Positions 7,766 through 23,949 of a stretch of DNA of 64,000 bases are shown piece after piece. The notes under the pieces were generated by a model that saw nothing but the letters and a program-made list of their open reading frames with translations, made no database searches and was not told where the DNA came from. This DNA comes from Bacillus sp. FJAT-22090. GTDB taxonomy: Bacteria > Bacillota > Bacilli > Bacillales_A > Planococcaceae. The first letter of the stretch is position 1. The number at the start of each line of letters is the position of its first letter. The position numbers and the translations under genes were made by a program. Where the stretch lies: the NCBI RefSeq assembly GCF_001278755.1, contig NZ_CP012601.1:1550001-1614000 (forward strand), written 5' to 3'.

Positions 7766-7959
7766 TAATATTCCTCATTTCATTCGTGTACAATTTGCCC
7801 ATTATACTATAAATGTTTACATACTACAATTAATTATACAAAAAAAAAGAAATAAAAGATATAAATTTAGCTTTTCCCCTATAAATCACTCTTGTCCGGA
7901 TTTTTTAAAAATTGCTCAGTTAAACTTCTTTGTTGTTTCAGAAAGAAATCTGTTCATCT

Positions 7960-8115: not shown

Positions 8116-8215
8116 ATTCATTTCATCAATGCATGGAGTTTAAAACAACGTTTTTGATAGTTTGTACTTTTTAACTAGTAATTAACAACAGTATTATTTA
8201 ACAAAGTCTTAGAAA

Positions 8216-8262
8216 AAAATAAAACGCCTGAACTTCCCCATTTCAAATGGAGGTTTCAGGCG
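8216..8262 (-). terminator. Terminator of the dynA-rhodanese unit
   Basis: On the minus strand a long, slightly imperfect stem (8225-8243 with 8245-8262) built on CGCCTGAA is followed by a T-rich tract at 8224-8210, directly after the rhodanese stop codon. Confidence 0.85.
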
Positions 8263-8294
8263 CAATTTCAACTTTTTAATTAGTTCTTTAAAGA

Positions 8295-9113
8295 CTACTT
8301 TTTACTTGTTTCTACTTCGTTTTCTCGAATCCAATCACTGTAGCTGCCTACATATAATTGGACATTTTCATACCCGGCTTCCTTCAAACTTGCATAAAGT
8401 GGTGCAGCAGTCACCCCACTACCGCAATAAGCAACGACAGGCTTTGATTTATCGGTTAATCCTGTTAGTTTTTCTTGTAAATCCTCTTGTTGCAGAAACT
8501 TACCATCACTTTTAAGTTGTTCCCAATCGAAATTTAGAGCAGTCGGAATATGACCAGCAACAGAATCTATTGGTTCCATTTCACCACGATAACGCTTTGC
8601 AGATCGTGCATCAATTAACTGTGCATCCATTTCACCACTAACAATTTTTTTAACTTTATTTACATCTACATAAATTTCATCTTTCCAATTTGGCGAAATA
8701 GTCGAAGCACTAATTTCAATTTCTTCATTGGAAACAGGCAATTTCTTTTTCGCCTCTTCATATCCTTCACGAAGTACATGAACATTGTTAAAGCCTGCCC
8801 ATTCCAATAAAAAGTATGCTCTTAAAGCAAATGGGGAACCTCCTTGATCATAAATGACGATATGATCATCTAAAAGCAATCCTGCCTTTTGAATTAGATT
8901 TGTCATCTTATCCTTTGAAATCATTGGATGGCGTCCATTTTCACTTCCCATGTCGGACAAATCATTTTCCAAGTCCCAATAGATTGCTCCTTCTAAATGT
9001 TCCATCTTAAACATTTCTTTTCCTGCATTCACATTTCCTAAATCAAAACGAGTATCAATAAATCGAACATTTTTTCCAATTATTTTATCCAAATCAATAA
9101 AAATATTGCTCAT
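8295..9113 (-). CDS. Double-rhodanese sulfurtransferase (thiosulfate/3-mercaptopyruvate type)
   Basis: Transfers sulfane sulfur from thiosulfate or 3-mercaptopyruvate to a thiol acceptor. Two rhodanese domains are visible: an inactive N-terminal one (about 5-125) and a catalytic C-terminal one (about 150-272) with the active-site loop CGSGVTA and nucleophile Cys230. That loop is the form common in 3-mercaptopyruvate sulfurtransferases, but the substrate is not certain. The ATG at 9113 is chosen over an upstream TTG because GGGAG sits 8 bases before it. It lies 18 bases after dynA, so both are probably cotranscribed. Confidence 0.88.
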   Translation of the reverse strand: MSNIFIDLDKIIGKNVRFIDTRFDLGNVNAGKEMFKMEHLEGAIYWDLENDLSDMGSENGRHPMISKDKMTNLIQKAGLLLDDHIVIYDQGGSPFALRAYFLLEWAGFNNVHVLREGYEEAKKKLPVSNEEIEISASTISPNWKDEIYVDVNKVKKIVSGEMDAQLIDARSAKRYRGEMEPIDSVAGHIPTALNFDWEQLKSDGKFLQQEDLQEKLTGLTDKSKPVVAYCGSGVTAAPLYASLKEAGYENVQLYVGSYSDWIRENEVETSKK

Positions 9114-9131
9114 GTTATTCTCTCCCTTCAA

Positions 9132-12100
9132 TTAAATTTTGGCATAAATCTCTTTCCATTTGGCAAGGGTTTCTTCTTGCTCTAAAAGATTTCGTTCGGC
9201 ATCAATTTGAATAATTGACTCGTTTAACCACTTTAATCGAACTGCCTCTGTCTCGATATCTACATATTGATCTGCCCATTTTGTAAGTCGATCATGCTCC
9301 AGCTTTAAGTAGCTTTCCGCTTCGATTTTCGTTTGCTCAGATAAGGAATCACGAAGCTTCTCTTTATCGTTTTTCTCGAAAAAAGATTTATTGTTTTTAA
9401 AATAAGATTTTACGTTTTCATATTTTTGAATTTCCTCAAAAGGACCAACAAATTCTAATAAATCGCGGTCTTCACTTTCATGAGGTGTAAAAGTAAAACT
9501 TTCATTCCATTCTTTTAGCACACGTATTTCTTCTTTTTCTAACTGTTTAATTTGTTTTTGGATAAACTGCAGTACTCGAAAGTTTGTTACACGCATTTCC
9601 TGCTCCAAGTCAAAACGAAGCATACTTAACAATTCTTTCAAAGCAATTCCAAGTGCCGTATTTGCTGATTGATTACTAAACAAAGAAGGATTATATGCCT
9701 CTTTAAAGAATTCATTGAAACGATAATATACTCGTTGTAATACATAGTACAACAAAGTTTCTAGTTCTTGCTTAGCTTCCTTAGCTATTACAGAAGACAT
9801 AGAATTTGAGTAACGTTTGCGAATTTTTTGTTCTTGCTCACGTAATTCTTTTAACCTTTCATCTTTTCTAGCTAAGTTCTTTTCTGTTTGCTCTATTAAT
9901 GTTAATAATTTATTTTGTTGGCGAGACGCCTCTTCATCTAGTGATGAAACCGCAATTTGCTTTAAATCTTTTTCCAAGAAACGATGGAAGGCTTCTTCAA
10001 ATTGCACCATTCCTTCGTGTAACGGTAAATGTCCTACTTTTTCTTTAAGTGCTTGTAAGCTTGAAATACCATATACTCTTGGGAAACGAATGCCAAATCG
10101 TTGAAGCTCATTTTGCACATATTGTTTTACAAGGTTTGCTTCTTCCTCTGTTTCTGCAAGGTCGATGGCATTAACGATAAAGAACATTTTATCCAATTCA
10201 AAGGCATCTTTTACTCGACCTAGTTGTATTAGGAACTCTCTGTCTGCCTTAGCAAATGCATGGTTAAAATAAGTCACAAACAATACTGCATCCGCATTCC
10301 GTATATAGTCAAATGCAACCCCTGTATGTCTTGCATTGATAGAATCTGCTCCCGGAGTATCAACTAATGTAACTCCAAGTCTAGTCAATTCACAATCGTA
10401 ATAAAAATCAATGAAATCTACAAAACAGCTTTTAGCTTCTTCCGCCACATAACTTTCAAATTCTTCGCCATTCACCCGTAACACATTTCCAAGTTGACTT
10501 TGAAATGTTGGATACCCTTTATGAAAAGCAGAAATAAAAGATTTATGAACCTCTTCTGAGACTGTTTGATTTATTGCCCCACTTGCTTGATCGAATGCTT
10601 CATCTAAAGACATAATAGTTATTCCTAATTGTTTATAAGCAAACGATACATCTTCTAATAATTGCTCTTTTGTTTTAAATGTAACATCAGCAGTATTATG
10701 TGGATGTTTTTCTGATATTGGGCGTATTTTATTTATTGCAGCAGTTGTTGGGTTTGGTGAAACTGGCAATACATTTGCACCCATTAACGCATTAGAAAAA
10801 CTAGATTTCCCTGCACTAAAAGCACCAAATAATGCAATTGTAAATTGTTGATTTTCAACTCTTTTAGCTTTTCGTTTAATAATCTCAGCTTCCACTTTAA
10901 AAGCTGGTAACTCTTTTAATACCTCACCAATTCTGTTTGCTCTCTTTAAGACTTGCTCGGGAGATAGTATACTATTTTCTTCTTCTTGTTCTATGGGAGC
11001 TATAGTTTCTAGTTCCTGTACCTGTTCTTCCAAGCTTGGATCATATTCGGCAATAGATTTTTGAAAACTATTTCGTTCCTCATCCCATGCTATTAATAAT
11101 TGATCCCGTTCTTTCCTTATAGCTAGAGCCGGAGTCTTTGTTTCCTGTTCAAAACCATGTATTCTTTCGTCAATTTCTTCCAATGATTGGATAGCTAGTA
11201 TTTTTTCATTGAGAACTTCTGTTTTTTGATCTGCTTTTTCTGTGTCTTCCACCGGATTTTCATTCATTGCGATGATCATTTTTTCTTTCCAAATATCTGT
11301 CTCACGTACAAAAAATCGGCTGACTGTTTCTTGAACCCTGTTTGCATAATGAAGAATAGAATCTCCGGTTATACCAGCACCTTCATGTAAGGAATCTGAA
11401 ATAAACAATGATGATATCTCGAAATCCAACCCATCAATTTCATTAGCTCTTTCATTGCTTAACAAAGAAACATCCTTTAGCATACTTTTCATAAGCTGTA
11501 TCAGATGTACGGTAATATTCGTTAGTACAACCTTCTCAAGTAGAATTCTTGCATCCTCAAGGCGATTAGATCGCTCTTCTTCTGTTTTCTTTTTGCTTCC
11601 TATAAAACCTACTTTAAATGAACCTTGCATACTCTCAGCATAAGTCTTAAGTGAGTCTCTCACCTCATATGGCATAATTACAGCGTTTTCTAAGATTTCT
11701 TTTCGTTGTTCTTCAAACATCTTTTTCCATAGACTTATATCTTGTAATGCAGATTGCTTTTGAGCTATTTCAAGTTGCTCTTTAATATCTTCTTTATTAT
11801 TCCATTCCTCTTCTGTTAGTTGTCCATCAAAAGTTTCTAGACATGCTGCTTTTTCATTTTCTAAATACTGTTTATGCTCATCCGCTAGTTTCTCTAATGT
11901 CGCATGTGCAGATGTAATAAAATATTGTTCTTTGTTATTAATAGAATTTAGAACAATTTCTTGTACCTTCTTAAAATCATTATGTATAAACTGTTTATCT
12001 TTTAATGAGGTAAAAAATATATCCTTCGGTTCAACGGACCATGCTTTGAAAGCATTTGCAACGGATTGCTTAAAAGCGTCAAAGGAAAGCTCTTCTTCTC

Positions 12101-12719
12101 GATGCTTATCCACTTGGTTAACAATTAAATAAACATTTTCGTTATAGTGAAGCAATTGCTTTGTAAATTGAAAATTTAGCTCAGATTGGACATGGTTATA
12201 GTCCATTACATAAAAAACGATATCTGCCAGATGAAGAGCTGACTCAGTTGATATCCTATGTGCATCATCTGTTGAATCAACTCCAGGAGTATCCATAACA
12301 GTAATACCTTCTGGTAAACTGGAGGTTGAATGACCAATTTCAATTTGAGATACTTTACTTCCGTCTTTTGAGTATTTTTTTACAAGTTGAATATCATATT
12401 CACCTGAGAATCTTACAGGTGCTCTATCAACAAAATGAACGAGAGCATAATTATCATTTGTCTTTTTTACAGTAACAATATTTGCCGAAGTAGGTATTGG
12501 ACTAGTTGGAAGTAACTGCTCATCTACTAGAGCATTAATCATGCTAGATTTTCCAGCAGAAAAATGTCCTGCAAACGCAATAGTGAATGTGCCATTTTCC
12601 AGTTTTTCTGCAAACAATTTAGCCTTTGCAAAACGTTCCTCATCTAAATTTCGTTGAAAAAGAGTAGCAAGCAAAGCATTTTTCTCTTTTAATAGTTGTA
12701 TATTTTCTAAATTCTCCAT
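9132..12719 (-). CDS. dynA: Dynamin-like double GTPase DynA
   Basis: A bacterial dynamin of 1195 residues, the same length class as B. subtilis DynA (YpbR), which tethers and fuses membranes and protects against phage and pore formers. Two complete dynamin units are fused head to tail: P-loops GHFSAGKSS (51-59) and GAFSAGKSS (around 630), switch motifs MDTPG (around 140) and VDTPG (around 790), and long coiled-coil stalk segments rich in Glu/Lys/Gln after each GTPase. Short hydrophobic paddles, not true transmembrane spans, would contact the membrane. Followed by the rhodanese gene in the same unit. Confidence 0.94.
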   Translation of the reverse strand: MENLENIQLLKEKNALLATLFQRNLDEERFAKAKLFAEKLENGTFTIAFAGHFSAGKSSMINALVDEQLLPTSPIPTSANIVTVKKTNDNYALVHFVDRAPVRFSGEYDIQLVKKYSKDGSKVSQIEIGHSTSSLPEGITVMDTPGVDSTDDAHRISTESALHLADIVFYVMDYNHVQSELNFQFTKQLLHYNENVYLIVNQVDKHREEELSFDAFKQSVANAFKAWSVEPKDIFFTSLKDKQFIHNDFKKVQEIVLNSINNKEQYFITSAHATLEKLADEHKQYLENEKAACLETFDGQLTEEEWNNKEDIKEQLEIAQKQSALQDISLWKKMFEEQRKEILENAVIMPYEVRDSLKTYAESMQGSFKVGFIGSKKKTEEERSNRLEDARILLEKVVLTNITVHLIQLMKSMLKDVSLLSNERANEIDGLDFEISSLFISDSLHEGAGITGDSILHYANRVQETVSRFFVRETDIWKEKMIIAMNENPVEDTEKADQKTEVLNEKILAIQSLEEIDERIHGFEQETKTPALAIRKERDQLLIAWDEERNSFQKSIAEYDPSLEEQVQELETIAPIEQEEENSILSPEQVLKRANRIGEVLKELPAFKVEAEIIKRKAKRVENQQFTIALFGAFSAGKSSFSNALMGANVLPVSPNPTTAAINKIRPISEKHPHNTADVTFKTKEQLLEDVSFAYKQLGITIMSLDEAFDQASGAINQTVSEEVHKSFISAFHKGYPTFQSQLGNVLRVNGEEFESYVAEEAKSCFVDFIDFYYDCELTRLGVTLVDTPGADSINARHTGVAFDYIRNADAVLFVTYFNHAFAKADREFLIQLGRVKDAFELDKMFFIVNAIDLAETEEEANLVKQYVQNELQRFGIRFPRVYGISSLQALKEKVGHLPLHEGMVQFEEAFHRFLEKDLKQIAVSSLDEEASRQQNKLLTLIEQTEKNLARKDERLKELREQEQKIRKRYSNSMSSVIAKEAKQELETLLYYVLQRVYYRFNEFFKEAYNPSLFSNQSANTALGIALKELLSMLRFDLEQEMRVTNFRVLQFIQKQIKQLEKEEIRVLKEWNESFTFTPHESEDRDLLEFVGPFEEIQKYENVKSYFKNNKSFFEKNDKEKLRDSLSEQTKIEAESYLKLEHDRLTKWADQYVDIETEAVRLKWLNESIIQIDAERNLLEQEETLAKWKEIYAKI

Positions 12720-12796
12720 TTGAAAAAAAAATCTCCTTTATAATTCGACAATTATGTATATCATAGCAAAAAACAAAGGAACGCAAAAGCGTTCCT

Positions 12797-12955
12797 TTGT
12801 TTTTCTGCGACGAGCTTTGCGCAGGAGCAAAAAGATCTTTGTTTTTCTGCGACGAGCTTGCGCAGGAGCAAAATTCTTGAATTTCTCCGACGAGCTCGCG
12901 CAGGAGCAAAAAGATCTTCGTTTTTCTGTGACGAGCCCGCGAAGGAGTACGTTTT
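12797..12955. repeat. Four imperfect tandem repeats, period about 40 bp
   Basis: The core GACGAGC recurs at about 12809, 12851, 12889 and 12930, spaced 42, 38 and 41 bases. Each unit runs roughly TTTTTCTGCGACGAGCTTGCGCAGGAGCAAAAAGATC (shown in parts: TTTTTCTGCGACGAGC, then TTGCGCAGGAGCAAAAAG). CTGCG and CGCAG in each of the first units can pair as a small hairpin. Open frames through it on both strands encode low-complexity Arg/Lys/Ser/Cys repeats and are not credible genes. Confidence 0.85.
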
Positions 12956-13038
12956 TTATTTCCACTTCATAAGTAAAAAAACTGGCTTCATCTGTTCCAC
13001 TTATATTGAACAAATCAAACCAACTTTAGAAAGTAATT

Positions 13039-13128
13039 TTATTTAACTTGGGGGGAAGTTGCACGTAACACATAAGCTGTGACCCCACTATAAAGTAAAA
13101 TAGTTGATCCAATTAATAACGCTAACAT
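13039..13128 (-). CDS. 29-residue hydrophobic membrane peptide, possibly iron-regulated
   Basis: The frame MLALLIGSTILLYSGVTAY... ends after 29 residues in SPQVK. It is one membrane helix with a short basic/polar tail. AGAGGA sits 9-10 bases before the ATG, and a plausible promoter (TAGAAA-17-TATTAT, -10 at 13173-13178) with a Fur-like operator lies upstream. No family is recognised. The support is the promoter, operator, ribosome site and helix together; a chance frame cannot be excluded. Confidence 0.5.
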   Translation of the reverse strand: MLALLIGSTILLYSGVTAYVLRATSPQVK

Positions 13129-13146
13129 ACATATCGTCCTCTCAAG

Positions 13147-13167
13147 TGAATTTGAAATTCATTCTCA
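13147..13167 (-). promoter_or_regulatory. Fur-family operator (overlapping 7-1-7 repeats)
   Basis: A perfect 7-1-7 palindrome TGAATTTGAAATTCA (13147-13161) overlaps a second element TGAAATTCATTCTCA (13153-13167) shifted by 6 bases. The second matches the Bacillus Fur consensus TGATAATNATTATCA at 11 of 14 positions. Overlapping 7-1-7 units offset by 6 are the known architecture of Fur boxes. The site lies just downstream of a minus-strand -10 (TATTAT at 13173-13178) and before the 29-residue peptide gene. Confidence 0.5.
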
Positions 13168-13269
13168 TTTAAATAATAGCACAATGTTTCGACATTTTCT
13201 ACATATAGTATTCTTTTTGTAATACTTTTATGCTAAAATTAAGCCATCTTTACTATTCGGAGGGATAAA

Positions 13270-13722
13270 ATGAGTGCGTCTAAACACATACAAACTATAC
13301 TAAATGGCACGATTCAATCGTTAAAGTCTGTTATCCCTCTTCCTATGGATATTAAATCACCATCTTTGATGGTTCAACCATATGATCAAAAAGAGATGGG
13401 TGTACTAATTGGGATTATAGGGGATATAAAAGGTCGTATTATTATAGATTCCACATCTAATTGTTTTTCATCGATTGGTGCAACTATGTTTGGTATGGCT
13501 TTAGAAGGAGAAATGCTTGAATCATTTACAGGTGAATTAGGAAATATGATAGCAGGTAATTTATGTACTACTGTTGCAGGTAACAACTTAGAAATAGACA
13601 TCACGCCACCTACTGTCATTGTTGGGACGACTAAATTATTTGGATTTCAGCATGCTTTTAGACTACCAGTCGTAATTAATGACATTGGAAATTTAACGAT
13701 TATACTCACTATCGATGAATAA
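13270..13722 (+). CDS. CheX-like chemotaxis phosphatase
   Basis: A 150-residue single-domain protein of the CheC/CheX/FliY phosphatase superfamily. These remove phosphate from CheY-type response regulators. The helix ESFTGELGNMIAGN carries the E-x-x-N catalytic pattern; one such helix fits the CheX form (CheC has two). AGGGA precedes the ATG, and it has its own promoter region and terminator. No chemotaxis gene is nearby, so it is an orphan whose partner is elsewhere or is a non-chemotaxis response regulator. Confidence 0.82.
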   Translation: MSASKHIQTILNGTIQSLKSVIPLPMDIKSPSLMVQPYDQKEMGVLIGIIGDIKGRIIIDSTSNCFSSIGATMFGMALEGEMLESFTGELGNMIAGNLCTTVAGNNLEIDITPPTVIVGTTKLFGFQHAFRLPVVINDIGNLTIILTIDE

Positions 13723-13734
13723 TGAGACCTAAGA

Positions 13735-13763
13735 GAACTTTCACTTATGAAAGTTCTTTTTTT
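13735..13763 (+). terminator. Terminator of the CheX-like gene
   Basis: Stem GAACTTTCA (13735-13743) pairs with 13748-13756, with a 4-base loop and a T-run to 13763, 12 bases after the stop codon. Confidence 0.9.
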
Positions 13764-13826
13764 ATTCCTCCAAATACCCCTATCTCTTTTATTCTTCACA
13801 TTAATTTCACATAATCCCCTTTCTTG

Positions 13827-13869
13827 TGTGACTTTTCTCACATCATTGCACTTCAATACTATTTATTAT
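13827..13869 (+). promoter_or_regulatory. Fnr-type site and promoter of the ba3 oxidase operon
   Basis: TGTGA-CTTTTC-TCACA (13827-13842) is a perfect match to the TGTGA-N6-TCACA consensus of Fnr/CRP regulators. A -10 TATTAT lies at 13864-13869 with no good -35. A start 7 bases downstream (about 13876) places the site centre at -41.5, the classic class II activator position. Activation under low oxygen is inferred. No fnr-like gene is in this window. Confidence 0.65.
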
Positions 13870-13910
13870 TAAAAATATACAAGAACTACTTTTGTAGGAG
13901 GTGTAGACAA

Positions 13911-14033
13911 ATGTCGAAAAAACGTGAAAAAGAACCAGATTTGAAAGGAACATTATATTCGGTTGGATTTGTTGGGGTATTCGTTTTAATTACATGGTTT
14001 ATGGCATTTTACTTGTTTATTGATAGATTTTAA
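13911..14033 (+). CDS. Cytochrome c oxidase subunit IIa (ba3 type)
   Basis: A 40-residue protein with a charged N-terminus (MSKKREKEPDLKGTLYSVG) and one transmembrane helix ending FYLFIDRF. The length, the helix and the position directly before subunit II match the CoxIIa subunit of ba3-type oxidases. The start is fixed by AGGAGGTG at 13897-13904. First gene of the three-gene oxidase operon, 20 bases before subunit II. Confidence 0.82.
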   Translation: MSKKREKEPDLKGTLYSVGFVGVFVLITWFMAFYLFIDRF

Positions 14034-14053
14034 TAATTTGGAGGTTTAAAGCG

Positions 14054-14530
14054 ATGCATATTCATAAGTACGAAAAATGGTGGATAACATTTGGAGTTAG
14101 CTCATTGGTCTTATTTTTAGTCATTGTTGGTATAAGTGCATTCCACTTTGGATCACATCCACCAAGCTCAAAAATTTATATTGATCCGGAACGTGTGGAC
14201 GAAATTGCACCATTTAATAACCCAGGAGTGCATAAAGTGGAAGGAAAAGATTGGGACTACGAAGTTGTATTTGTAGCTTCTGCATTTTTTTATAATCCAC
14301 CTGAGATTGAAGTTCCCCTTGGGTCTAAAGTGAAATTCATAGCAACAACCAAGGATGTAGTTCATGGATTCCAAGTAGCTGGCACAAACATTAATATGAT
14401 GCTTGAACCAGGATATGTTTCTGAATATGTAACTACCGTTGATAAAGCTGGAGAGTATCTAATCTTATGTAATGAATATTGTGGTGTTGGACATTCGTCC
14501 ATGACATCTATGCTAAAGGTGGTTGAGTAA
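14054..14530 (+). CDS. Cytochrome c oxidase subunit II, CuA type (ba3 oxidase)
   Basis: Carries the CuA centre that takes electrons from cytochrome c and passes them to subunit I. One N-terminal transmembrane helix (about 11-31) anchors an extracytoplasmic cupredoxin domain. CuA ligands are visible: His104 and, in LCNEYCGVGHSSM, Cys139, Glu141, Cys143, His147 and Met150. At 158 residues it is the short ba3 form, unlike the long caa3 subunits with fused cytochrome c. GGAGG precedes the ATG. Its stop codon overlaps the ribosome-site region of subunit I. Confidence 0.93.
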   Translation: MHIHKYEKWWITFGVSSLVLFLVIVGISAFHFGSHPPSSKIYIDPERVDEIAPFNNPGVHKVEGKDWDYEVVFVASAFFYNPPEIEVPLGSKVKFIATTKDVVHGFQVAGTNINMMLEPGYVSEYVTTVDKAGEYLILCNEYCGVGHSSMTSMLKVVE

Positions 14531-14531
14531 T

Positions 14532-16199
14532 ATGACAACTATTACAGAAAAAGCGAAAGACTTAGTAAAAGTAGATAAAAGAGACGGAAAACTAGCACTT
14601 GCTCATATATATGTTGCTTTCATCGCATTAGCGATTGGTGGGCTTTGTGGTCTTTTACAAACATTAGTGCGCTCTGGGACCTTTACACTCCCTTGGGGAA
14701 TCGGCTATTATCAAGTTTTAACGGTTCATGGTGTTTTACTAGGACTAATTTTAACAACCTATTTTATTTTTGGTTTTCAAATTGCTGCCGTTAGCCGTAC
14801 TTCTGGTACATTAACTAATAAACAAAGATTGTTTGGATGGATCGGTTTCTGGACAATGACAATCGGTACAACTGCTGCTTCAGTTATGGTTTTGTTAAAT
14901 GAAGCATCTGTACTGTATACTTTCTATGCTCCACTACAAGCTCACTGGATTTTCTACGTAGGAATGGCTTTAGTAGTTGTGGGATCATGGATTGGTGGAG
15001 CAGGCCAGATAATGAAATACATCGAATGGAGAAAGGCTAATCCTGGTCAGCCTAGTCCATTATTAACTTTTATGGTTGTAGTGAATTTGGCAATGTGGAT
15101 TATTTGTTCACTTGGTGTAGCAGTGGAAGTTGTTTTCCAACTGATCCCCTGGTCATTGGGTTGGGTAGATGAAGTGGATGTTCTGCTTTCCCGTACATTA
15201 TTCTGGTATTTCGGTCACCCATTAGTATATTTCTGGTTATTGCCAGCATATATGGTTTGGTATGTTATTATCCCAAAAATTATTGGAGGAAAAATTTTCT
15301 CTGATGCACTCGCTAGATTGTCATTTATGTTATTTTTACTTTTCTCTATTCCAGTAGGATTCCACCATCAGTTAACTGAGCCAGGAATCAGTTCTTTCTG
15401 GAAGTTCCTGCAAGTTGTATTAACATTAATGGTTGTTATCCCTTCTCTATTAACTGCATTTTCTATGTTTGCAACGTTTGAGTTACGTGGGCGTGCATTG
15501 GGTGGAAAAGGTATATTTGGATGGGTAAAAAAATTACCATGGGGAGATGCTCGTTTCTTAGTTCCTTTTATCGGAATGGCTGCATTTATTCCTGCTGGTG
15601 CTGGTGGAATAATTAATGCCTCTCACCAGATGAACCAAGTAGTTCATAATACTATCTGGGTAACAGGCCACTTCCATTTGACTGTAGCGACAACTGTTGT
15701 GCTAACTTTCTTTGGGGCAACTTACTGGCTCATCCCACATCTTACCGGTAGAGTATTAACAAAACAAATGAACAAACTCGCTATCATTCAAGGTATTGTT
15801 TGGGCATTTGGTATGAGTATCATGTCAGGAGCAATGCATATTGTTGGTTTATTTGGAGCCCCTCGTCGTTCTGACTTCTCTACTTATGGAGGTTCTGAAC
15901 AAGCAGCAGAATGGATTCCCTATCAGATTGCACAAGCAGTTGGTGGTACCATTCTATTCATAGGGATCATATTAGTCCTTTATATTGTTATAAACTTAAT
16001 TTGGTTTGCTCCAAAAGGAGAAACTGAATTCCCAATCGGTGAAGTTTCTGAACATGCTGAGAAAACACCTATGGTACTGGAGAATTGGAAAATTTGGTTA
16101 ACCATTTGTATTGCTTTAATTTTATTTGCTTATACAGTTCCCCTAATCGATATGATTCAAAATGCACCACCTGGATCAAAAGGATATAAATTCTGGTAA
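14532..16199 (+). CDS. Cytochrome c oxidase subunit I (ba3 type)
   Basis: Catalytic heme-copper oxidase subunit, about 13 transmembrane helices, 555 residues. Seen are a low-spin heme His (VLTVHGVLLG), the CuB/Tyr region FGHPLVYFWLLP, the HH pair of the CuB site (FHHQLTEPG) and the two-His loop VTGHFHLTVATT. Divergent residues around the proton channels place it in the B-type (ba3) group. The ATG at 14532 follows AGGTGG by 9 bases, whereas an earlier TTG would overlap that ribosome site. Last gene of the oxidase operon. Confidence 0.94.
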   Translation: MTTITEKAKDLVKVDKRDGKLALAHIYVAFIALAIGGLCGLLQTLVRSGTFTLPWGIGYYQVLTVHGVLLGLILTTYFIFGFQIAAVSRTSGTLTNKQRLFGWIGFWTMTIGTTAASVMVLLNEASVLYTFYAPLQAHWIFYVGMALVVVGSWIGGAGQIMKYIEWRKANPGQPSPLLTFMVVVNLAMWIICSLGVAVEVVFQLIPWSLGWVDEVDVLLSRTLFWYFGHPLVYFWLLPAYMVWYVIIPKIIGGKIFSDALARLSFMLFLLFSIPVGFHHQLTEPGISSFWKFLQVVLTLMVVIPSLLTAFSMFATFELRGRALGGKGIFGWVKKLPWGDARFLVPFIGMAAFIPAGAGGIINASHQMNQVVHNTIWVTGHFHLTVATTVVLTFFGATYWLIPHLTGRVLTKQMNKLAIIQGIVWAFGMSIMSGAMHIVGLFGAPRRSDFSTYGGSEQAAEWIPYQIAQAVGGTILFIGIILVLYIVINLIWFAPKGETEFPIGEVSEHAEKTPMVLENWKIWLTICIALILFAYTVPLIDMIQNAPPGSKGYKFW

Positions 16200-16326: not shown

Positions 16327-17142
16327 CTATTTTTCTTTCATAAATTTATTTCTAAGTTCAATTAGGGCATCTTCATGACCCTGATGAAACACACTTATGG
16401 CCATCTGGGATGAAACATAATCCAATGATTGCTTCAGAGACATAGTCTGTGATTCTTTCACAATTCGTTTTGTCATTTGGATTACTTCTTGAGGTTTCTT
16501 CAGTATCCCTTCACAGTAGTTTTGAATAAATCCATTCAATTCATCATGAGGGACAACGTGACTCAACATTTTTAACTTTAGTCCTTCTTCGGCACTTAAC
16601 ACTTTGCCTGTCCAAAGCATTTCCAATGCCATGTCCATTCCGATAATTCTTGGCAAATAATATCCTCCGCCATCACCAGGGACGATTCCGGCGTTTATAT
16701 AGGTTTCACCTAATTTTGCCTGGTCAGAGGCGATTCTTATATCGCACATCAAAGCCATGTCAAGCCCAGCCCCCATTGCATGACCATTGATTGCCGCAAT
16801 CATCGGTTTATCTATCTCTTCCATTAGAAGTGGAATTCGTTGGATGTTCTTCCAAAGGCTATTTTTCACATGCAATGGTGTACTTCTAAAATCAGTCTCA
16901 TCTAATTCTTTCTTGGCTAAGAATCCTTTCTGATTAATCATTGACTTCACATCACCACCTGCACAGAAGGCACGTCCATTACCAGTAACTACTCCGATAT
17001 GAATTTCTGGATTATCCCTTATCTCCTCCAACGCCTTAATCCATAAATCAATCATTTCTTTGCTAAAGGCATTCATTTGGAGCGGTCGATTCAATGTAAT
17101 CGTAGCGATATGATTTTTCACAAGAAATAGTAAATCAGCCAT
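16327..17142 (-). CDS. Enoyl-CoA hydratase/isomerase (crotonase) family protein
   Basis: A 271-residue crotonase-fold protein acting on an acyl-CoA. The oxyanion-hole segments AGGDV (61-65) and GHAMGAGLDMA (120-130) are present. The positions of the two catalytic glutamates of true enoyl-CoA hydratases appear to hold Asp128 and Tyr148 instead, so simple hydratase activity is doubtful; Asp157 in PGDGGG could act in another way, as in isomerases. Last gene of the catabolic operon, 59 bases after the CoA-transferase gene with a hairpin between. Reaction unknown. Confidence 0.82.
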   Translation of the reverse strand: MADLLFLVKNHIATITLNRPLQMNAFSKEMIDLWIKALEEIRDNPEIHIGVVTGNGRAFCAGGDVKSMINQKGFLAKKELDETDFRSTPLHVKNSLWKNIQRIPLLMEEIDKPMIAAINGHAMGAGLDMALMCDIRIASDQAKLGETYINAGIVPGDGGGYYLPRIIGMDMALEMLWTGKVLSAEEGLKLKMLSHVVPHDELNGFIQNYCEGILKKPQEVIQMTKRIVKESQTMSLKQSLDYVSSQMAISVFHQGHEDALIELRNKFMKEK

Positions 17143-17165
17143 AAATTACTCCCCCATATGTAATA

Positions 17166-17194
17166 GAGTCGGCACTAATGATGATAGCCGACTC
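17166..17194. other. Intra-operon hairpin between the CoA-transferase and crotonase genes
   Basis: Perfect 8-bp stem GAGTCGGC (17166-17173) with GCCGACTC (17187-17194) and a 13-base loop. In the direction of the operon (minus) no T-run follows, so it is not a standard terminator. It could stabilise or delimit the upstream message. Confidence 0.55.
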
Positions 17195-17201
17195 TTCTTA
17201 T

Positions 17202-18362
17202 TTATTTCCCGTCTTTATCCCGCAACTGAAGTCCCTTTAATAACTCTTCATTATGCTCTCCCAAGTTCGGTGCATAGCGGCTTAATTCGACAGGAGTTTC
17301 CGAGAATGTTACTGGGAACTTCATATCCCTTATTTCTCCTTCCGTCGGATGATGGACAGTTCTAAAAAAATTAATGTCATTCAAATGAGGATCCTTAAAT
17401 AGGTCATCTGGTGTATTGATATTAGTGCAAGGAATATCAGCATTCACTAATAAGGAGAGCCATGTTTCAGTCGTTTTCTCAGCTATTATTTCCTCAATCA
17501 TACTGTAAACAAAATCTATATTTTGTGTCCTAACCTCCATATCAACAAATCTTTCGTCTGCCGCCAACTCTTGGTGACCCGACACTTCAAAGAAAGATTT
17601 CCATTGTTTATCATTGTAGATCATTACACCTATGTAACCATCCTTCGTCTTATATGGCTTTCGGTAAGGAGAAGTAACACGTGAATAATAGGTTGAGCCT
17701 TTTGCTGGAATAAATGTCTCCCCATACATATGCTCAATCATATTGTATGAAACCATCGTCTCAAACATTGGCACTTCAATTTCCTGACCGACCCCTTTTT
17801 CCTGGCGATAGAGCAATGCAGCCAAAATCGAACTGAGACCGACAAGCCCGGCAGTCTTGTCAGCCAAAACAGTTGCCAAATATTGGGGAGATCCTGAAAC
17901 CTTCCCTTGAGCAGACACAATTCCTGATGCAGCCTGAATAATGTCATCGTAAGCAGGCTTGTCACCATACGGCCCTTCTTTACTAAACCCGTACATCCCA
18001 CAGTAAATTAGTTGACTATTTACTTTCCTGAGATGTTCATAGGAAAGGCCGAGTCTTTCCATCGTTTTAGGTCTCATCGTATGAACGAGAACATCTGCAT
18101 CTTTTACAAGGGCAATCATCGTTTCCAACCCATCTTTACTCTTTAGATCAAGAGCAACGCTCCGCTTATTGCGGTTTAAATGGAGAAAGAGACTGCCCAT
18201 TCCACGGTTTTTCGATGGGCCGAGATACCGTGTCGTATCCCCTGATGGGCTTTCAATTTTAATGACATCAGCACCCATATCTGCTAACATGAGTGTGCAA
18301 TATGGACCCATTACAACTGAAGTCAGATCAAGTACACGAATACCTTCCAACGGTCCACTCAT
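17202..18362 (-). CDS. Class III (CaiB/BaiF family) CoA-transferase
   Basis: Moves CoA between carboxylic acids, probably activating the imported dicarboxylate. 386 residues with the family start GIRVLDLTSVVMGPYCTLML, the IKIE segment, NRNKRSVALDLK, and the nucleophile Asp168 in VLADKTAGL. It lies between a MaoC hydratase and a crotonase gene. Itaconate CoA-transferase and mesaconyl-CoA transferase belong to this family, which fits the neighbours, but specificity cannot be read from sequence. Confidence 0.88.
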   Translation of the reverse strand: MSGPLEGIRVLDLTSVVMGPYCTLMLADMGADVIKIESPSGDTTRYLGPSKNRGMGSLFLHLNRNKRSVALDLKSKDGLETMIALVKDADVLVHTMRPKTMERLGLSYEHLRKVNSQLIYCGMYGFSKEGPYGDKPAYDDIIQAASGIVSAQGKVSGSPQYLATVLADKTAGLVGLSSILAALLYRQEKGVGQEIEVPMFETMVSYNMIEHMYGETFIPAKGSTYYSRVTSPYRKPYKTKDGYIGVMIYNDKQWKSFFEVSGHQELAADERFVDMEVRTQNIDFVYSMIEEIIAEKTTETWLSLLVNADIPCTNINTPDDLFKDPHLNDINFFRTVHHPTEGEIRDMKFPVTFSETPVELSRYAPNLGEHNEELLKGLQLRDKDGK

Positions 18363-18398
18363 CTGCTCTCCTCCTAAACTTTTAAATAAAATGATTAA

Positions 18399-18863
18399 TT
18401 ATTTACTCGTACTTGGTTTTTTTAACATAAGACCCGCTCGCTTTGTCTTTACCACCAACTCCCCATGCTGGTTATAGCCTCTTTGTTCAAACCAGACGAT
18501 TCCAGTGCCAGCACGTGATTTTGACTCACGTTTACCAACAATCTCCGTCTCAGCGCGGAGTGTATCCCCGATTCGAACAGGTGCAGGAAACGTAGTCTCT
18601 TCAAAACCTAAATTACCTAGCGTTGTCCCTTCTGTTAATTCTGCAACTCCTACTCCTACGACAAAAGATAAGGTGAAAAGACTATTAACGATTCGTCCTC
18701 CATGAATTGTCCCTTTTGAATACTCCTCATCTAAATGCAGTGATTGCGTATTATGGGTCAAAGTTGTAAACAACAAGTTATCCGTTTCTGTAACTGTACG
18801 TCCAGGCAGGTGATTATAGACATCACCAATCATTAATTCCTCATAATATTTTCCGCCTGACAT
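18399..18863 (-). CDS. MaoC-family hydratase
   Basis: A single hot-dog domain of 154 residues. The (R)-hydratase signature region is seen as TTLTHNTQSLHLDEEYSKG followed by HGGRIVNSLFTLS. Such proteins hydrate 2-enoyl-CoA thioesters; itaconyl-CoA and mesaconyl-CoA hydratases are in this family. It is 12 bases downstream of the CitE-type lyase gene and 36 bases upstream of the CoA-transferase gene. Together the three would activate, hydrate and cleave an unsaturated C5 or C4 diacid. The exact substrate is inferred. Confidence 0.86.
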   Translation of the reverse strand: MSGGKYYEELMIGDVYNHLPGRTVTETDNLLFTTLTHNTQSLHLDEEYSKGTIHGGRIVNSLFTLSFVVGVGVAELTEGTTLGNLGFEETTFPAPVRIGDTLRAETEIVGKRESKSRAGTGIVWFEQRGYNQHGELVVKTKRAGLMLKKPSTSK

Positions 18864-18875
18864 GGTTTCTCCCCC

Positions 18876-19757
18876 TTATTTGATTGTCTGATGTAGTTGT
18901 TGATAGATAGCCAATATTTCCCTTGCTGTTTTCACATGGGCATAATCAATATGCTCGCCCTGGTACATGATGGCCGTTTCGCCATTGCTTTCTGCTAACT
19001 CAAATGCATCCACCAAACCACGATAGTAGATGATTTCATCCTCTGAAGGAGAGTAAATTTCATTTACAATCGAGACATTAGAAGGATGTAGAATCAGCTC
19101 GCCAGCAAACCCCAACTGTCGATTGAACGCTGCACTTCTCTTTAACCCATCTAGATTATGAACATCTTGCCAAAGACCACCAATTGGTAGGATTCCTGCA
19201 GCACGTGCAGCCATCACAACTTTAGAACGCATATACAAAGTCTCCAAGCCTTCATTCGTCCATTTATATCCGAGTGCACGAGCTACATCCCCATTTTTGG
19301 CACTTAAACCCGCTATTCCTATAACGCGTTCGCAAATGGCAATTTCATATGCCATCTGCATCGATTTTGCTGTTTCAAGGATAGGTAGGAGTTTCACCGT
19401 CCCTAAAGGGATTCCTTGATCGTGCTCCAAATTTTCCAGAACTTTCGAAATCGATTCAATGTCATCAGGACCATACAATTTTGGCAAAACAAGACCTTTA
19501 ATACCCTTCACTACGACAGCCCTTAAATCCTCCAAATCGAATTCTTCCTCTTTATTGATTCGGACAAATACATTAATACCTTTAGAGCATAGATGAGGAA
19601 TCGCTTCAGCTACATAGCCCCGTGCCTCACCTTTCAAATGCAATGGAACACTATCTTCCAAATCGAGAATGACACCATCCGCCCCAAAGGTAGGAATTTT
19701 ATCAAACCACTTTTGCTTGATCCCTGGTACAAAAAGAAACGTTCGATAGTTATTCAA
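18876..19757 (-). CDS. CitE-like CoA-ester lyase (citramalyl-/malyl-CoA lyase type)
   Basis: HpcH/HpaI aldolase superfamily, 293 residues, a TIM-barrel Mg-dependent lyase. VILDLEDSVP (29-38), FVRINKE, GLVLPKL, LPILETA and GLSAKNGDVARALGY are the family motifs. The family splits citramalyl-CoA into acetyl-CoA and pyruvate, or malyl-CoA into acetyl-CoA and glyoxylate. It is not the citrate lyase subunit, because no citD/citF partners are present. Start codon 12 bases after the IclR gene stop, so clearly in one operon. Confidence 0.87.
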   Translation of the reverse strand: MNNYRTFLFVPGIKQKWFDKIPTFGADGVILDLEDSVPLHLKGEARGYVAEAIPHLCSKGINVFVRINKEEEFDLEDLRAVVVKGIKGLVLPKLYGPDDIESISKVLENLEHDQGIPLGTVKLLPILETAKSMQMAYEIAICERVIGIAGLSAKNGDVARALGYKWTNEGLETLYMRSKVVMAARAAGILPIGGLWQDVHNLDGLKRSAAFNRQLGFAGELILHPSNVSIVNEIYSPSEDEIIYYRGLVDAFELAESNGETAIMYQGEHIDYAHVKTAREILAIYQQLHQTIK

Positions 19758-19769
19758 TGGAATCCTCCT

Positions 19770-20516
19770 TTACACTTTCGGATAACCTAATTTATAGGAA
19801 ATATTAAGAGCAGCCTCTTTTATTTTTTCTATATACGAACCTTCAAGCTCTTTTTGATAATCACCTATAGGAATTACACAGATTATGCTGCCTATTACCT
19901 TACTACGAGCATCAAATATTGGCGCTCCAATACTGAGAGCTCCTTCTTTCCGCTCATTAGCTGTAATTGCATACCCTTGGCTTTTAATTTTTTTTAGTTC
20001 CTCTTTAATTTCATTTCTTTTATCTTGTGATTCTCCTTCTTTATCAAATACATCTTCAATTTCAGAATCTGAAAGATATGCAAGTATCGTTTTACCACTG
20101 GCTGCAACGTGGATTGGCTGCAAAACACCGATTTCTAAGACATACTGGAGTGCAAATGAACTTTTAACACTATCAACAAACGAAAGCTTCGTATGTTGCG
20201 GATAATAAAGTCCAAAATATACAGAGTGCCGTAATTCTGATGCCAAACTTTCCAGTTGTGGACGAGCTACTCGTTTCACATCTACATTAGTAGAAACGAT
20301 TGATGCCATTCTGATGAAGTCAGATCCGACTCTATATTTATTAGTTAACTCCGAATACTCCAAAATATGCTCGTCCTTTAACATGGAAATCATTCGATGA
20401 GTACTACTTACAGGCATATTAAGATATCTGGAGAGTTCATTCACTCCCCACTCGTTTTGGATATCAGTAAATGCTCTAAGTATGGAAAAAGTTTTAGAGA
20501 TTACATTTGAATTCAT
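19770..20516 (-). CDS. IclR-family transcriptional regulator
   Basis: A 248-residue regulator: winged helix-turn-helix (about 8-60; WGVNELSRYLNMPVSSTHRM) and a C-terminal effector-binding domain with ASGKTILAYL and the late GALSIGAPIFDARSKVIGSI segment typical of IclR. AAGGAAA precedes the ATG. It sits inside the operon between transporter and enzyme genes and probably controls it, together with its own synthesis, in response to the substrate. A matching TGGAA-N5-TTCC operator lies in the operon promoter. Confidence 0.9.
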   Translation of the reverse strand: MNSNVISKTFSILRAFTDIQNEWGVNELSRYLNMPVSSTHRMISMLKDEHILEYSELTNKYRVGSDFIRMASIVSTNVDVKRVARPQLESLASELRHSVYFGLYYPQHTKLSFVDSVKSSFALQYVLEIGVLQPIHVAASGKTILAYLSDSEIEDVFDKEGESQDKRNEIKEELKKIKSQGYAITANERKEGALSIGAPIFDARSKVIGSIICVIPIGDYQKELEGSYIEKIKEAALNISYKLGYPKV

Positions 20517-20540
20517 ATTAATTTCCTTCCTAATTTTGCT

Positions 20541-21833
20541 TTATTTAATCATTAATTCAGGAAGCCATAATGTAATGAATGGCATTAAAATTAACAATAC
20601 TAGTATAAACAGATCCATGATGACAAACCAAGTTACCCCTTTAAATCCTTCCGCAGTCTTAACTCCTGCAGCTCCTGTAGCGACAAAGACATTCATACCG
20701 ACTGGAGGTGTTACCAATCCAATTTCTACTGTTTTCGTCACAATAATTCCAAACCATACCGGATCGAAACCAAGCGATGTGATGATTGGGAATGTTAATG
20801 GAAGTGTCAAAATAAGAATTGCTATTTGGTCCATAAAGAATCCTAAAATTAGATAGATGATGATAATGATAGCCAATATCCAATATTTAGATGTATCCAA
20901 CCCTTCAACTATTCCAACAATTCGCTGGGTGGACTGTGTCAATGTTAAGAAGTAACTGAAAATATGTGCTCCGATGATAATCGTCATTATCATTGTAGTA
21001 GATTTGATGGTATCAGTAAGTGCTTCTCCAAATTTGTTAAGATTCATTCTTCCCATGATAAATACAACGACTAATGTAATAAAAGCACCCATCGCTCCTG
21101 CTTCCGTAGCTGTTACTAGTCCGCTATAGATTCCTCCAATAACAGCAAGGATAATGATAAGCATCGGCCATATATTCTTTAGAGCAACGAACTTCTCTTT
21201 CATGGTGGGGTTGATTTCAATTTTTGGTGCAATTTCGGGCTTAAATTTTACCCAAACGAAAATGACAATAATATAACCGATCGCTGTAAGAATCCCAGGT
21301 ATAATTCCAGCAATGAGTAGGGACCCAACACCTGTTTCAGTTAAAATTCCATAAAGGATTAAGATAATGCTTGGTGGAATCATGACTGCCAAGGTTCCGG
21401 CCATACTAACAACGCCCATAGTAAAAGCTGTGTCGTATTTGTATTTTTTCATTTCTGGTGCAGCTGCTTTCGACATGGCTGCGGCAGAAGCCTGGCTCGA
21501 ACCCGAGACTGATGCCATCATCGCCCCTGCAAATACAGTAGCAATTCCAAGTCCTCCTGGCAATTTTCCAAGCCATTTGTATGCAGCCTGAAAGAGATCC
21601 TTCATAATTCCACTAACTGTCATTAATGAAGCCATGAGAATGAACATTGGAATTGAGGTCATTATGAAACTTTTAACACTGTCATAAGGTGCTGTCTGCA
21701 TAATTCCTAAAAATGAATCCCATCCGCTGTTTATAAGCAGTCCAATAGATCCTGCAATTCCTAAAGCAAAAGCAATAGGCATTCCAAAGGCTAAAAATAA
21801 TAAAAGTAAAATAAGCGGTATTGCAACACTCAT
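20541..21833 (-). CDS. dctM: TRAP transporter large permease (DctM)
   Basis: The 430-residue membrane subunit with about 12 transmembrane helices that forms the Na+-driven transport path of TRAP importers. Family segments GIAGSIGLL, ASVSGSSQASAAAMSK and PPSIILILYG are visible. It overlaps the small-permease gene by 4 bases (ATGA), a sign of translational coupling. The enzymes downstream suggest the substrate is a dicarboxylate such as itaconate or mesaconate. This is inference. Confidence 0.93.
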   Translation of the reverse strand: MSVAIPLILLLLFLAFGMPIAFALGIAGSIGLLINSGWDSFLGIMQTAPYDSVKSFIMTSIPMFILMASLMTVSGIMKDLFQAAYKWLGKLPGGLGIATVFAGAMMASVSGSSQASAAAMSKAAAPEMKKYKYDTAFTMGVVSMAGTLAVMIPPSIILILYGILTETGVGSLLIAGIIPGILTAIGYIIVIFVWVKFKPEIAPKIEINPTMKEKFVALKNIWPMLIIILAVIGGIYSGLVTATEAGAMGAFITLVVVFIMGRMNLNKFGEALTDTIKSTTMIMTIIIGAHIFSYFLTLTQSTQRIVGIVEGLDTSKYWILAIIIIIYLILGFFMDQIAILILTLPLTFPIITSLGFDPVWFGIIVTKTVEIGLVTPPVGMNVFVATGAAGVKTAEGFKGVTWFVIMDLFILVLLILMPFITLWLPELMIK

Positions 21834-22360
21834 TGCATTTCACTCCCATCAGAAGGATCTGTTTCACTGTATTTACCTTTTCCTATAACGAGAAGTAAAG
21901 CCAGTAATAGCAACCTAATTACAAATAAGAATGAACCGATAGGAATCCATATATAAGATAGCCATAAAGGTAGATTGATAAGACCAGCCGCTACATAATT
22001 AAATTGCAATGCTTCTAGTGTCATATTGAACCCTTTCAAACCGATGAAAAAAAACATCACTGCCGCGAACACGTAATAGATGATATTCAGAACATCCTGC
22101 ACTCGTTTCGGAAATCGATCGAACAGAATGTCAAGGCGGATATGTCCGTCTATTTTCTGTACAAAGCTCATGCTTAAAAACACAAGTGCCACCATCAAAT
22201 ACAATTCTATCGTTTCATAAGCTCCTATAATAGATTGCTTAAAAAAATATCGGCTTATTGCATCTGCGGTCGTTAATAACATCATGATCACAACAGCTAC
22301 TTGTGAAAGCCTCAATGAAAGAAATTCTAACTTGTCAAACCATTTTTCAATGAAGTCCAT
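21830..22360 (-). CDS. dctQ: TRAP transporter small permease (DctQ)
   Basis: A 176-residue four-helix membrane protein (helices near 18-38, 52-70, 92-112 and 135-160) of the DctQ family; the segment ALVFLSMSFVQKIDGHIRLD is characteristic. It binds and stabilises the large permease. It lies between the binding-protein and large-permease genes, with a 4-base overlap with the latter. Confidence 0.9.
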   Translation of the reverse strand: MDFIEKWFDKLEFLSLRLSQVAVVIMMLLTTADAISRYFFKQSIIGAYETIELYLMVALVFLSMSFVQKIDGHIRLDILFDRFPKRVQDVLNIIYYVFAAVMFFFIGLKGFNMTLEALQFNYVAAGLINLPLWLSYIWIPIGSFLFVIRLLLLALLLVIGKGKYSETDPSDGSEMQ

Positions 22361-22405
22361 ACTTCCACCTCCATAGGGACAGCGCTCTCGTTACAAGAAC
22401 GCCTT

Positions 22406-23443
22406 TTATTTATTTAAACTAGCTTGTATTTCACGATACTTTTTGATTGTTTCTTTAGCATTGAAACCACGGCCTTCCAAATCTTGTGCCCAACGGTCCC
22501 ATGAAGGTTCAAGAGCCTTATCCCACTGGGCGGATTCTGCTTCACTTAACTCGTATACTTCCATTTCTTCGGCATATTGTTCTGCCAATTCCTCGTTTTT
22601 CTGATCCAGGAATTTCGATAAGTGTGCGACAGTTTCGTCCCCCGCTTGGGATATCGCTTCCTTCACTCCTTGAGGTAAAGATTGGTAGACTTCATCATTA
22701 ATGGAATAAACTACAGCAAAACTACCTAGATTGGCACCTTTTGTTGTGTACTTGGCAATTGCCTCAATTTGATAGGCGGCAAAACTTGTGAATGGAAATG
22801 TGACCCCATCGACCGTGCCTCGCTCCATTGCTGTATATGCTTCCGTAGCTGGCATGAAAATCGGGGAAGCGCCAAGTTCGTCAAAACCGAACTCCATTGT
22901 CCCTGTTACACGTGCCTTTGTACCTTTGATATCTTCAATACTTTTAATCGGTTTTTCTGCTGTCACGTACTGATATTGAGGTAAAGCAACCGCAAAGATT
23001 GGACGTACATCATGTTTCAAATACTCTTCTTCCGTTAAATAGTCTTTCATAAGCTTCCAAAAGATTTCGGAACCCTCTTGGGACGAACTATAAGCACCTG
23101 GCAGAGTTGCAACTTCTGTCAAGGGTAGACGTTCAGTAGAATAGGATGTATATCCGATGTCCACTGTTTTAGACAACGTCAAATCAAGATAACTGCTCGC
23201 TTTTCCAATCTGTTCGGCTGGATAATGTTCGAATTCTACTTTACCGTTTGTTAATTCCTCTACACGATTCATGAAGTACAAAGTACCTTCTGACGAAAGA
23301 TAATTTGTAGTAGGAAGTGAATCCGCAATCTTCAGCTTAATAACCCCGTCTCTTTCATTGCCTTGAACTGTATTTCCACATCCTGAGACGAGTATTAGAA
23401 TAGAAAGACTTAGCAAAGCTACTACTTTTTTCATTTCTTTCAT
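22406..23443 (-). CDS. dctP: TRAP transporter substrate-binding lipoprotein (DctP)
   Basis: Captures the substrate outside the membrane. A lipoprotein signal (MKEMKKVV then ILILVSGC) puts the lipidated Cys at residue 22. The body has DctP-family features such as IADSLP, FEHYPAEQIGK and GTKARVTGTMEFGF, where the Arg would bind a substrate carboxylate. The ATG at 23443 is chosen since GAAGGG lies 10 bases before it; an upstream ATG at 23452 is too close to that site. First transporter gene, 26 bases after the cupin gene. Confidence 0.9.
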   Translation of the reverse strand: MKEMKKVVALLSLSILILVSGCGNTVQGNERDGVIKLKIADSLPTTNYLSSEGTLYFMNRVEELTNGKVEFEHYPAEQIGKASSYLDLTLSKTVDIGYTSYSTERLPLTEVATLPGAYSSSQEGSEIFWKLMKDYLTEEEYLKHDVRPIFAVALPQYQYVTAEKPIKSIEDIKGTKARVTGTMEFGFDELGASPIFMPATEAYTAMERGTVDGVTFPFTSFAAYQIEAIAKYTTKGANLGSFAVVYSINDEVYQSLPQGVKEAISQAGDETVAHLSKFLDQKNEELAEQYAEEMEVYELSEAESAQWDKALEPSWDRWAQDLEGRGFNAKETIKKYREIQASLNK

Positions 23444-23469
23444 TGCACCCATTCCCTTCAGTTAATATT

Positions 23470-23820
23470 TCATCCCCTCACTTTTTGAGGGGAATACATG
23501 AGGACAAAACGCAAAAGACTTTCTCCTATATTTTTCACTTCATGCATCGCCATTTTAGGAATCCAAATTACATCTCCTTTAGACAGGACTGCCTCCTTTT
23601 CATTGATGACAATATGCATCTTACCTTCCAATATGTACATGATTTGCTCCATATCCTCATGGAAATGTGGATCTGCTAACCCACCTGGTTCCATCTCTCC
23701 AATAATGACCTCCAAATTCTCAATACCCTCTGCCGGTCCCACAAGACGACGGTTGAATGTTCCTTCATGTCCAGGTGGTGAATAAATCTCAACATCCCTC
23801 TCGTTCTTCCAATAAACCAT
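23470..23820 (-). CDS. Small cupin-domain protein
   Basis: A single-domain cupin of 116 residues and the first gene of the catabolic operon. Both cupin motifs are seen: GGLADPHFHEDMEQIMYILEG in motif 1 (metal-type His, His, Glu spacing) and DVIWIPKMAMHEVKN in motif 2 with the later His. It could be a metal-dependent isomerase, a dioxygenase or a binding protein; the reaction is unknown. The ATG at 23820 has AGGGG 8 bases before it. Operon position suggests a role in the same pathway. Confidence 0.82.
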   Translation of the reverse strand: MVYWKNERDVEIYSPPGHEGTFNRRLVGPAEGIENLEVIIGEMEPGGLADPHFHEDMEQIMYILEGKMHIVINEKEAVLSKGDVIWIPKMAMHEVKNIGESLLRFVLMYSPQKVRG

Positions 23821-23847
23821 TACCATTACCCCTTTCAAACTTTCTTT

Positions 23848-23861
23848 TGAATACGCTTACA
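23848..23861 (-). promoter_or_regulatory. cre-like (CcpA) site in the operon leader
   Basis: On the minus strand TGTAAGCGTATTCA matches the cre consensus TGWAANCGNTNWCA at 10 of 11 defined positions. It lies about 60 bases downstream of the inferred start of transcription and before the cupin gene, where CcpA could block elongation. Confidence 0.5.
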
Positions 23862-23894
23862 TTTAATTCAAAAAATAAACACCATTCCATTATT

Positions 23895-23949
23895 CGGAAT
23901 AATGTTCCATTTACAAAATTAGTTTAACACAAGGAATTTTATAAAACAA
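23895..23949 (-). promoter_or_regulatory. Promoter and IclR-like operator of the catabolic operon
   Basis: On the minus strand TTGTTT (23944-23949) and TAAACT (23921-23926) are 17 bases apart, giving a start near 23914. Just downstream TGGAACATTATTCCG (23895-23909) has the TGGAA-N5-TTCC layout of IclR sites. It overlaps a perfect 8-1-8 palindrome CATTATTCGGAATAATG (23888-23904). An IclR-family gene is in the operon. Confidence 0.55.

Follow-up and report, generated by a model that had tools for sequence, protein, structure and literature searches.

The closest described systems are the itaconate degradation cluster of Pseudomonas aeruginosa (PA0878-PA0886, together with IctPQM) and ripABC of Yersinia pestis. 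The former joins a coenzyme A (CoA)-transferase, a hydratase, a CitE-type lyase and a tripartite ATP-independent periplasmic (TRAP) transporter in one cluster, and the latter contains a small MaoC hydratase and a CitE-like lyase, with RipA presumably belonging to another CoA-transferase family than CaiB. Here we analyse an operon of Bacillus sp. FJAT-22090 that shares these elements. It lies in a window of 64,000 nucleotides (positions 1550001-1614000 of a genome that consists of one contig of 4.21 Mb), and it probably serves to break down, in response to its substrate, a carboxylic acid that is unsaturated or hydroxylated. The likeliest candidate is a diacid of the 2-substituted fumarate type, though not itaconate itself. 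Unlike the P. aeruginosa cluster, it has no acyl-CoA dehydrogenase, MmgE/PrpD protein or lactonase and contains a cupin and an IclR gene instead; its lyase falls in another clade than 8khl, by its product name presumably the Pseudomonas lyase PA0883, and its DctP is without the binding residues of IctP. Compared with ripABC, its hydratase and lyase score far under the RipB/Ich and RipC/Ccl cut-offs.

The operon consists of nine open reading frames on the minus strand (16327-23838), separated, from the end of the crotonase gene to the cupin gene, by 59, 36, 12, 12, 24, -4, 45 and 17 bases. In the same order, the nine proteins exceed the Pfam cut-offs for crotonase, class III CoA-transferase, MaoC, HpcH/HpaI (CitE-like), IclR, DctM, DctQ, DctP and Cupin_2. 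Both the single-strand layout with gaps of -4 to 59 bases and the families named in an initial annotation of this DNA are thereby borne out. The features are as follows.

16327-17142, minus strand: crotonase-family protein, 271 amino acids (aa), without both hydratase Glu residues, probably a lineage-specific addition
17202-18362, minus strand: class III CoA-transferase (CaiB), 386 aa
18399-18863, minus strand: MaoC hydratase, motif N(x4)HxD, 154 aa
18876-19757, minus strand: CitE-like C-C lyase of a separate clade, TTG start, 293 aa
19770-20516, minus strand: IclR-family regulator, 248 aa
20541-21833, minus strand: TRAP large permease, dctM, 430 aa
21830-22360, minus strand: TRAP small permease, dctQ, 176 aa
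22406-23452, minus strand: TRAP binding protein, dctP, without the QENPxxN motif, 348 aa
23470-23820, minus strand: cupin, likely ATG start at 23820 (the longest frame starts with TTG at 23838)
23847-23862, minus strand: cre-like sequence, putative CcpA site
23884-23908, minus strand: operator-like array of GGAA(T)/ATTCC half-sites, putative IclR site

The order cupin-dctP-dctQ-dctM-IclR-CitE-MaoC-CaiB is kept in three other Bacillota genomes with 57-87% protein identity: Bacillus sp. B15-48 (locus L004), a member of the same genus (genome G132, locus L032) and a member of another genus of the same family (genome G006, locus L033). Because the order recurs in all three, the eight-gene grouping is more than chance, and the conserved operon is IclR-linked. 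The cupin is present in all three as well. Its true start is probably the ATG at 23820 rather than the TTG at 23838, since two orthologues start at the position aligned with this ATG.

The lyase belongs to the PF03328 superfamily and, across 39 aligned rows, keeps the catalytic Arg, the metal-binding Glu and Asp and the lid Asp (VRIN, ETA, NGD and HID columns), the residues used for this comparison being those given in PMC3832036. The 17 rows of its group depart from the remaining rows in three places. Fifteen of them have [A/S/P]K[N/D][G/A]D as the metal-Asp loop, the exceptions being GPNAD (L055) and ARDAD (L056), whereas most other rows have [F/L/Y]GxxD. All 17 also share WQ, within a motif that reads GGLWQ in the operon lyase, and a lid of the form H[I/V]DxAH. 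In Rv2498c, according to PMC6689899, the backbone NH groups of Ala136, Glu137 and Asp138 hold the substrate carboxylate, and Asp138 is a metal ligand; the changed loop may be the counterpart of this carboxylate-holding loop.

In a tree of 50 rows, which is without RipC (3qll) and Rv2498c, the 17 changed-loop rows group together (99/92), and form a 19-row clade (100/97) with two haloarchaeal plasmid rows (L057 and L082) that keep the motifs in part only. This clade stands apart from CLYBL, malyl-CoA lyase and 8khl, the last of which falls in another, 18-row group (96/87), so that the phylogenetic placement suggested with the initial annotation does not group the operon lyase with the presumed Pseudomonas enzyme; the exact places of 8khl, 5vxc, 1sgj and 4l9y outside the clade are unsure because of long branches. 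The operon lyase scores 180.8 bits for citE (cut-off 443) and 111.8 bits for RipC_Ccl (NF038242, cut-off 375). Two usual-loop lyases, taken from the same genus and family, reach 230 and 277 bits for citE and ∼184 bits for RipC_Ccl, all under the cut-offs as well, so the RipC/Ccl cut-off alone is not decisive on itaconate.

All 17 MaoC rows compared contain N(x4)HxD and NLG, and 16 contain VNS (FNS in L080). The best solved relatives of the hydratase are 8hgn and 4e3e; domain 2 of 8hgn, a beta-methylmalyl-CoA dehydratase, has the same N(x4)HxD, and 1q6w has D for the N. Among NCBIfam models the hydratase still matches RipB/Ich (NF038241) best, at 121 bits against a cut-off of 340. The CoA-transferase is a full-length match to PF02515 over its cut-off (390.6 bits, residues 5-371), but it passes no specific NCBIfam cut-off, reaching 239.5 of 700 bits for succinyl-CoA:mesaconate CoA-transferase (NF041294) and 247 of 750 for the succinate-glutarate model. 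Among solved structures, 10uh and 4ed9 come ahead of the succinate-3-hydroxy-3-methylglutarate (HMG) CoA-transferase 9br6/9br7 (∼190 bits).

The best-scoring solved proteins for DctP are 7nr2, 4n6d, 5im2, 4nap and 4pgn, with weak scores of 78-94 bits; these presumably bind aromatic or bulky acids, and a literature search for their ligands yielded no useful paper. According to PMC12599236, IctP binds itaconate through R169, N209 and N213. DctP keeps the ligand Arg, but when the IctP residues are located by means of the QENPxxN motif in 4p47 and similar proteins, IctP itself being absent from the alignment, it reads VTFPFTS at the site of N209 and N213, as do its three syntenic orthologues, and so has neither asparagine. 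The only other DctP-family match in the genome has MESPISL at this site. In the Paracoccus versutus lyase cluster, two binding proteins are ∼31% identical to DctP, one on each strand relative to the lyase.

Taken together, the TRAP genes, the class III CoA-transferase, the N(x4)HxD MaoC and the catalytic residues of the lyase support the general chemistry initially put forward, i.e. uptake, CoA activation, hydration and cleavage to acetyl-CoA and an oxo acid. The accompanying specific link to itaconate or mesaconate is not supported: the lyase forms a separate clade with a changed loop, the lyase, hydratase and CoA-transferase all score under the specific cut-offs, and DctP is without N209 and N213 of IctP. 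The key enzymes and the transporter are unlike those of known itaconate degradation. In the pathway that we propose, the TRAP system would import the acid, and CaiB would transfer CoA to it from an acyl-CoA, e.g. succinyl- or acetyl-CoA. The MaoC protein, whose motif is intact, would then hydrate this ester at its 2,3 double bond, yielding a 3-hydroxyacyl-CoA, which the CitE-like enzyme would split into acetyl-CoA and a 2-oxo acid. No further enzyme should be needed in the operon, since both products would enter central metabolism. IclR would act as the repressor at the array immediately upstream, catabolite repression by CcpA may come on top, and the cupin would be a constant accessory. In its logic the operon is a catabolic one of an ordinary kind; its lyase clade is distinct, and the candidate for its operator is clear. 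A choice between products by way of the glyoxylate shunt was considered and set aside as non-discriminating, isocitrate lyase and malate synthase both being encoded in the genome.

In an order-level sample, lyase matches at E 1e-40 occur in 21 of 261 genomes, and six of the 261 (the own genome, G132, G006, G062, G063 and G064) have a lyase of >50% identity. Three of these six carry the operon (own, G132 and G006); in the 18-19 kb fetched around each lyase of G062, G063 and G064, none of the other operon proteins was matched. Matches were found in 4/398 genomes of a class-level sample (E 1e-55) and in 22/398 of a phylum-level sample (E 1e-45), with at most 40% identity in the latter among the matches listed, own genome aside. 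Bacillus sp. B15-48 has a further lyase-hydratase pair elsewhere (L005; 57% and 73% identity). Three loci of genus g10 (L034, L035 and L036) have a same-clade lyase (51-53%) without other operon genes, and in L035 groEL is the gene 1.3 kb from the lyase.

Changed-loop lyases also occur on plasmids of Burkholderia, Cupriavidus and Paracoccus (L051-L054, two of the four without annotation at the lyase cluster), adjoining MaoC, an acyl-CoA dehydrogenase and two CaiB. Their lyases are 50-52% and their hydratases 52-60% identical to those of FJAT-22090, with the same lyase active-site motifs; they differ from the operon in the extra acyl-CoA dehydrogenase, the CaiB pair and nearby MFS, TctC or TRAP genes, and we found no function described for these clusters. 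Rhodococcus and Aurantimicrobium have changed-loop lyases too, and the lyase-hydratase pairs of all five genera have other enzymes upstream. The gene sets that include an acyl-CoA dehydrogenase and a CaiB pair are consistent with the route proposed here in a saturated version. We tentatively suggest, at somewhat less than an even chance, that the clade marks an undescribed catabolic module of Bacillota, Actinomycetota, Pseudomonadota and perhaps, in part, haloarchaea. Such a module would pair a mesaconyl-type MaoC with a rebuilt-loop CitE, cleave a CoA ester used by no characterised CitE-like lyase and have interchangeable CoA-activation front ends (one CaiB, paired CaiB with an acyl-CoA dehydrogenase, or an AMP-forming ligase).

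Itaconate, converted through itaconyl-CoA and (S)-citramalyl-CoA to pyruvate and acetyl-CoA, is possible but not favoured, and we regard it as unlikely. The enzyme types are those of known clusters (PMC12290011), RipB/Ich is the top NCBIfam model for the hydratase, and the genome encodes isocitrate lyase, an enzyme inhibited by itaconate according to PMC7397319; against this stand the clade and loop of the lyase, the scores far under the cut-offs and the absence of the IctP asparagines from DctP. We hold it similarly improbable that the operon takes up and shortens an aryl or beta-branched 2-enoic acid, with MaoC hydrating the enoyl-CoA and the lyase releasing an aldehyde or ketone and acetyl-CoA. 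The presumed aromatic or bulky ligands of the solved proteins that score best for DctP and the change in the substrate-carboxylate loop would suit such a route, and in several records the relatives lie amid aromatic or xenobiotic degradation genes (ring-hydroxylating dioxygenases, P450s), but the operon encodes neither an aldehyde dehydrogenase nor another enzyme that would handle the aldehyde or ketone, and the similarity of DctP to the solved proteins is weak. Conversion of 3-methylglutaconate or 3-hydroxy-3-methylglutarate to acetoacetate and acetyl-CoA seems less probable again. It would draw on the CitE-like Rv2498c, which cleaves (R)-HMG-CoA and (S)-citramalyl-CoA (PMC6689899), and on the CaiB match to 9br6/9br7, yet the homologues of Rv2498c are distant from the operon lyase (49 bits for 6aq4), and CaiB stays under every specific cut-off, as noted above for succinate-glutarate.

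Several observations weigh against the fumarate-type diacid reading. Given the changed loop, the product could be something other than a 2-oxo acid, and a mono-acid substrate is possible because DctP is nearest to solved TRAP proteins that are not of the C4 type. The lyase that accompanies a similar MaoC in Citricoccus, Frigidibacter and Novosphingobium is of the usual ED type; the two kinds of lyase may thus act in related steps, and the case for a new substrate from the loop change alone is weaker for it. Similar TRAP genes also occur in acyl-CoA operons of Sulfitobacter (L076) and Tistrella (L081) in which no CitE was found. In favour of the reading, the Citricoccus cluster, on a plasmid of Citricoccus sp. 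SGAir0253 (L077), unites all eight families, although rearranged, with identities of 26% (CitE, with the usual ED loop), 53% (MaoC), 27% (DctP), 25% (DctQ), 42% (DctM), 34% (CaiB) and 28% (cupin); its IclR gives no BLAST match at 1e-5 and is assigned by Pfam. On this plasmid the set (6418-15944) has genes annotated as TraM recognition domain proteins on both sides, as if inserted among conjugation genes. A literature search found no paper on a CaiB-CitE-MaoC-IclR-TRAP operon, the one hit being an unrelated Rhodococcus study.

Upstream of the cupin, an array resembling GGAA(T)/ATTCC/GGAAT is present in all four operons, the third half-site being weaker in L004; the match of the pattern in the four is by construction, because it was written from those sites. 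A genome-wide search found no other array site with fewer than three mismatches in FJAT-22090, and a reversed control pattern gave three matches at ≤3 mismatches, the same number as the array pattern itself. The array is a candidate IclR site. Between array and cupin lies a catabolite-responsive element (cre)-like sequence, a putative CcpA site, which is the one exact match in the window to the consensus (0.29 expected; at least one match in 25 of 100 shuffles). By eye, it is exact in L032 and has one mismatch in L004, and none was seen in L033. Consensus promoters in the upstream region are at chance level (22 found, 27.7 expected), and a repeat search upstream of the operon returned nothing.

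The crotonase was downgraded as a pathway step because it is missing next to CaiB in all three syntenic operons, and it is probably a lineage-specific addition. At the positions of the Glu residues of 5xzd and 5zai, presumably their catalytic pair, it carries D and Y, and so is without the two Glu of a hydratase. Crotonase matches at E 1e-60 occur in 59 of the 261 order genomes, own included. Its relatives lie in an operon of another type: at all nine of the other crotonase loci that were fetched, each from the same genus or family, the same two genes adjoin it, both acyl-CoA dehydrogenases by Pfam in the one locus scanned (L107); the best match of the larger in the own genome is 32% identical (residues 9-250 of 382). 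Six of the nine also have a CaiB-like and an IclR-like gene, and three have a gene pair for which Pfam indicates, in L104, a TAXI-like binding protein together with a fused permease of the DctM type. A role in the operon is still conceivable, since a Sulfitobacter pontiacus plasmid combines a crotonase (42% identical) with TRAP genes, CaiB (48%), two acyl-CoA dehydrogenases and an IclR-type gene.

Elsewhere in the genome (L030, C1:1512000-1531000), a second CaiB lies at 6080-10934 with a crotonase (30% identical to that of the operon), a flavin mononucleotide (FMN)-dependent dehydrogenase and ATP-binding cassette (ABC) transporter genes (NIL domain, permease), possibly another acid-degradation operon. 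In L059 (G287; 1110-8444), genes for a GntR regulator, CaiB, an HMG-CoA-lyase-like protein and two aconitase-family proteins adjoin a CaiB-CitE-MaoC group. Within the window, three adjoining minus-strand genes (1622-4477) look by eye like an ABC transporter binding protein, permease and ATPase.

Names are often given to CitE-like enzymes on the basis of their cluster, and the present operon is a warning that not every CaiB-MaoC-CitE-TRAP cluster signifies itaconate degradation. A lyase clade in which the residues for chemistry are kept and the carboxylate loop is changed is a clear target in the search for a new substrate, and the single array upstream of the operon makes its inducer directly testable.

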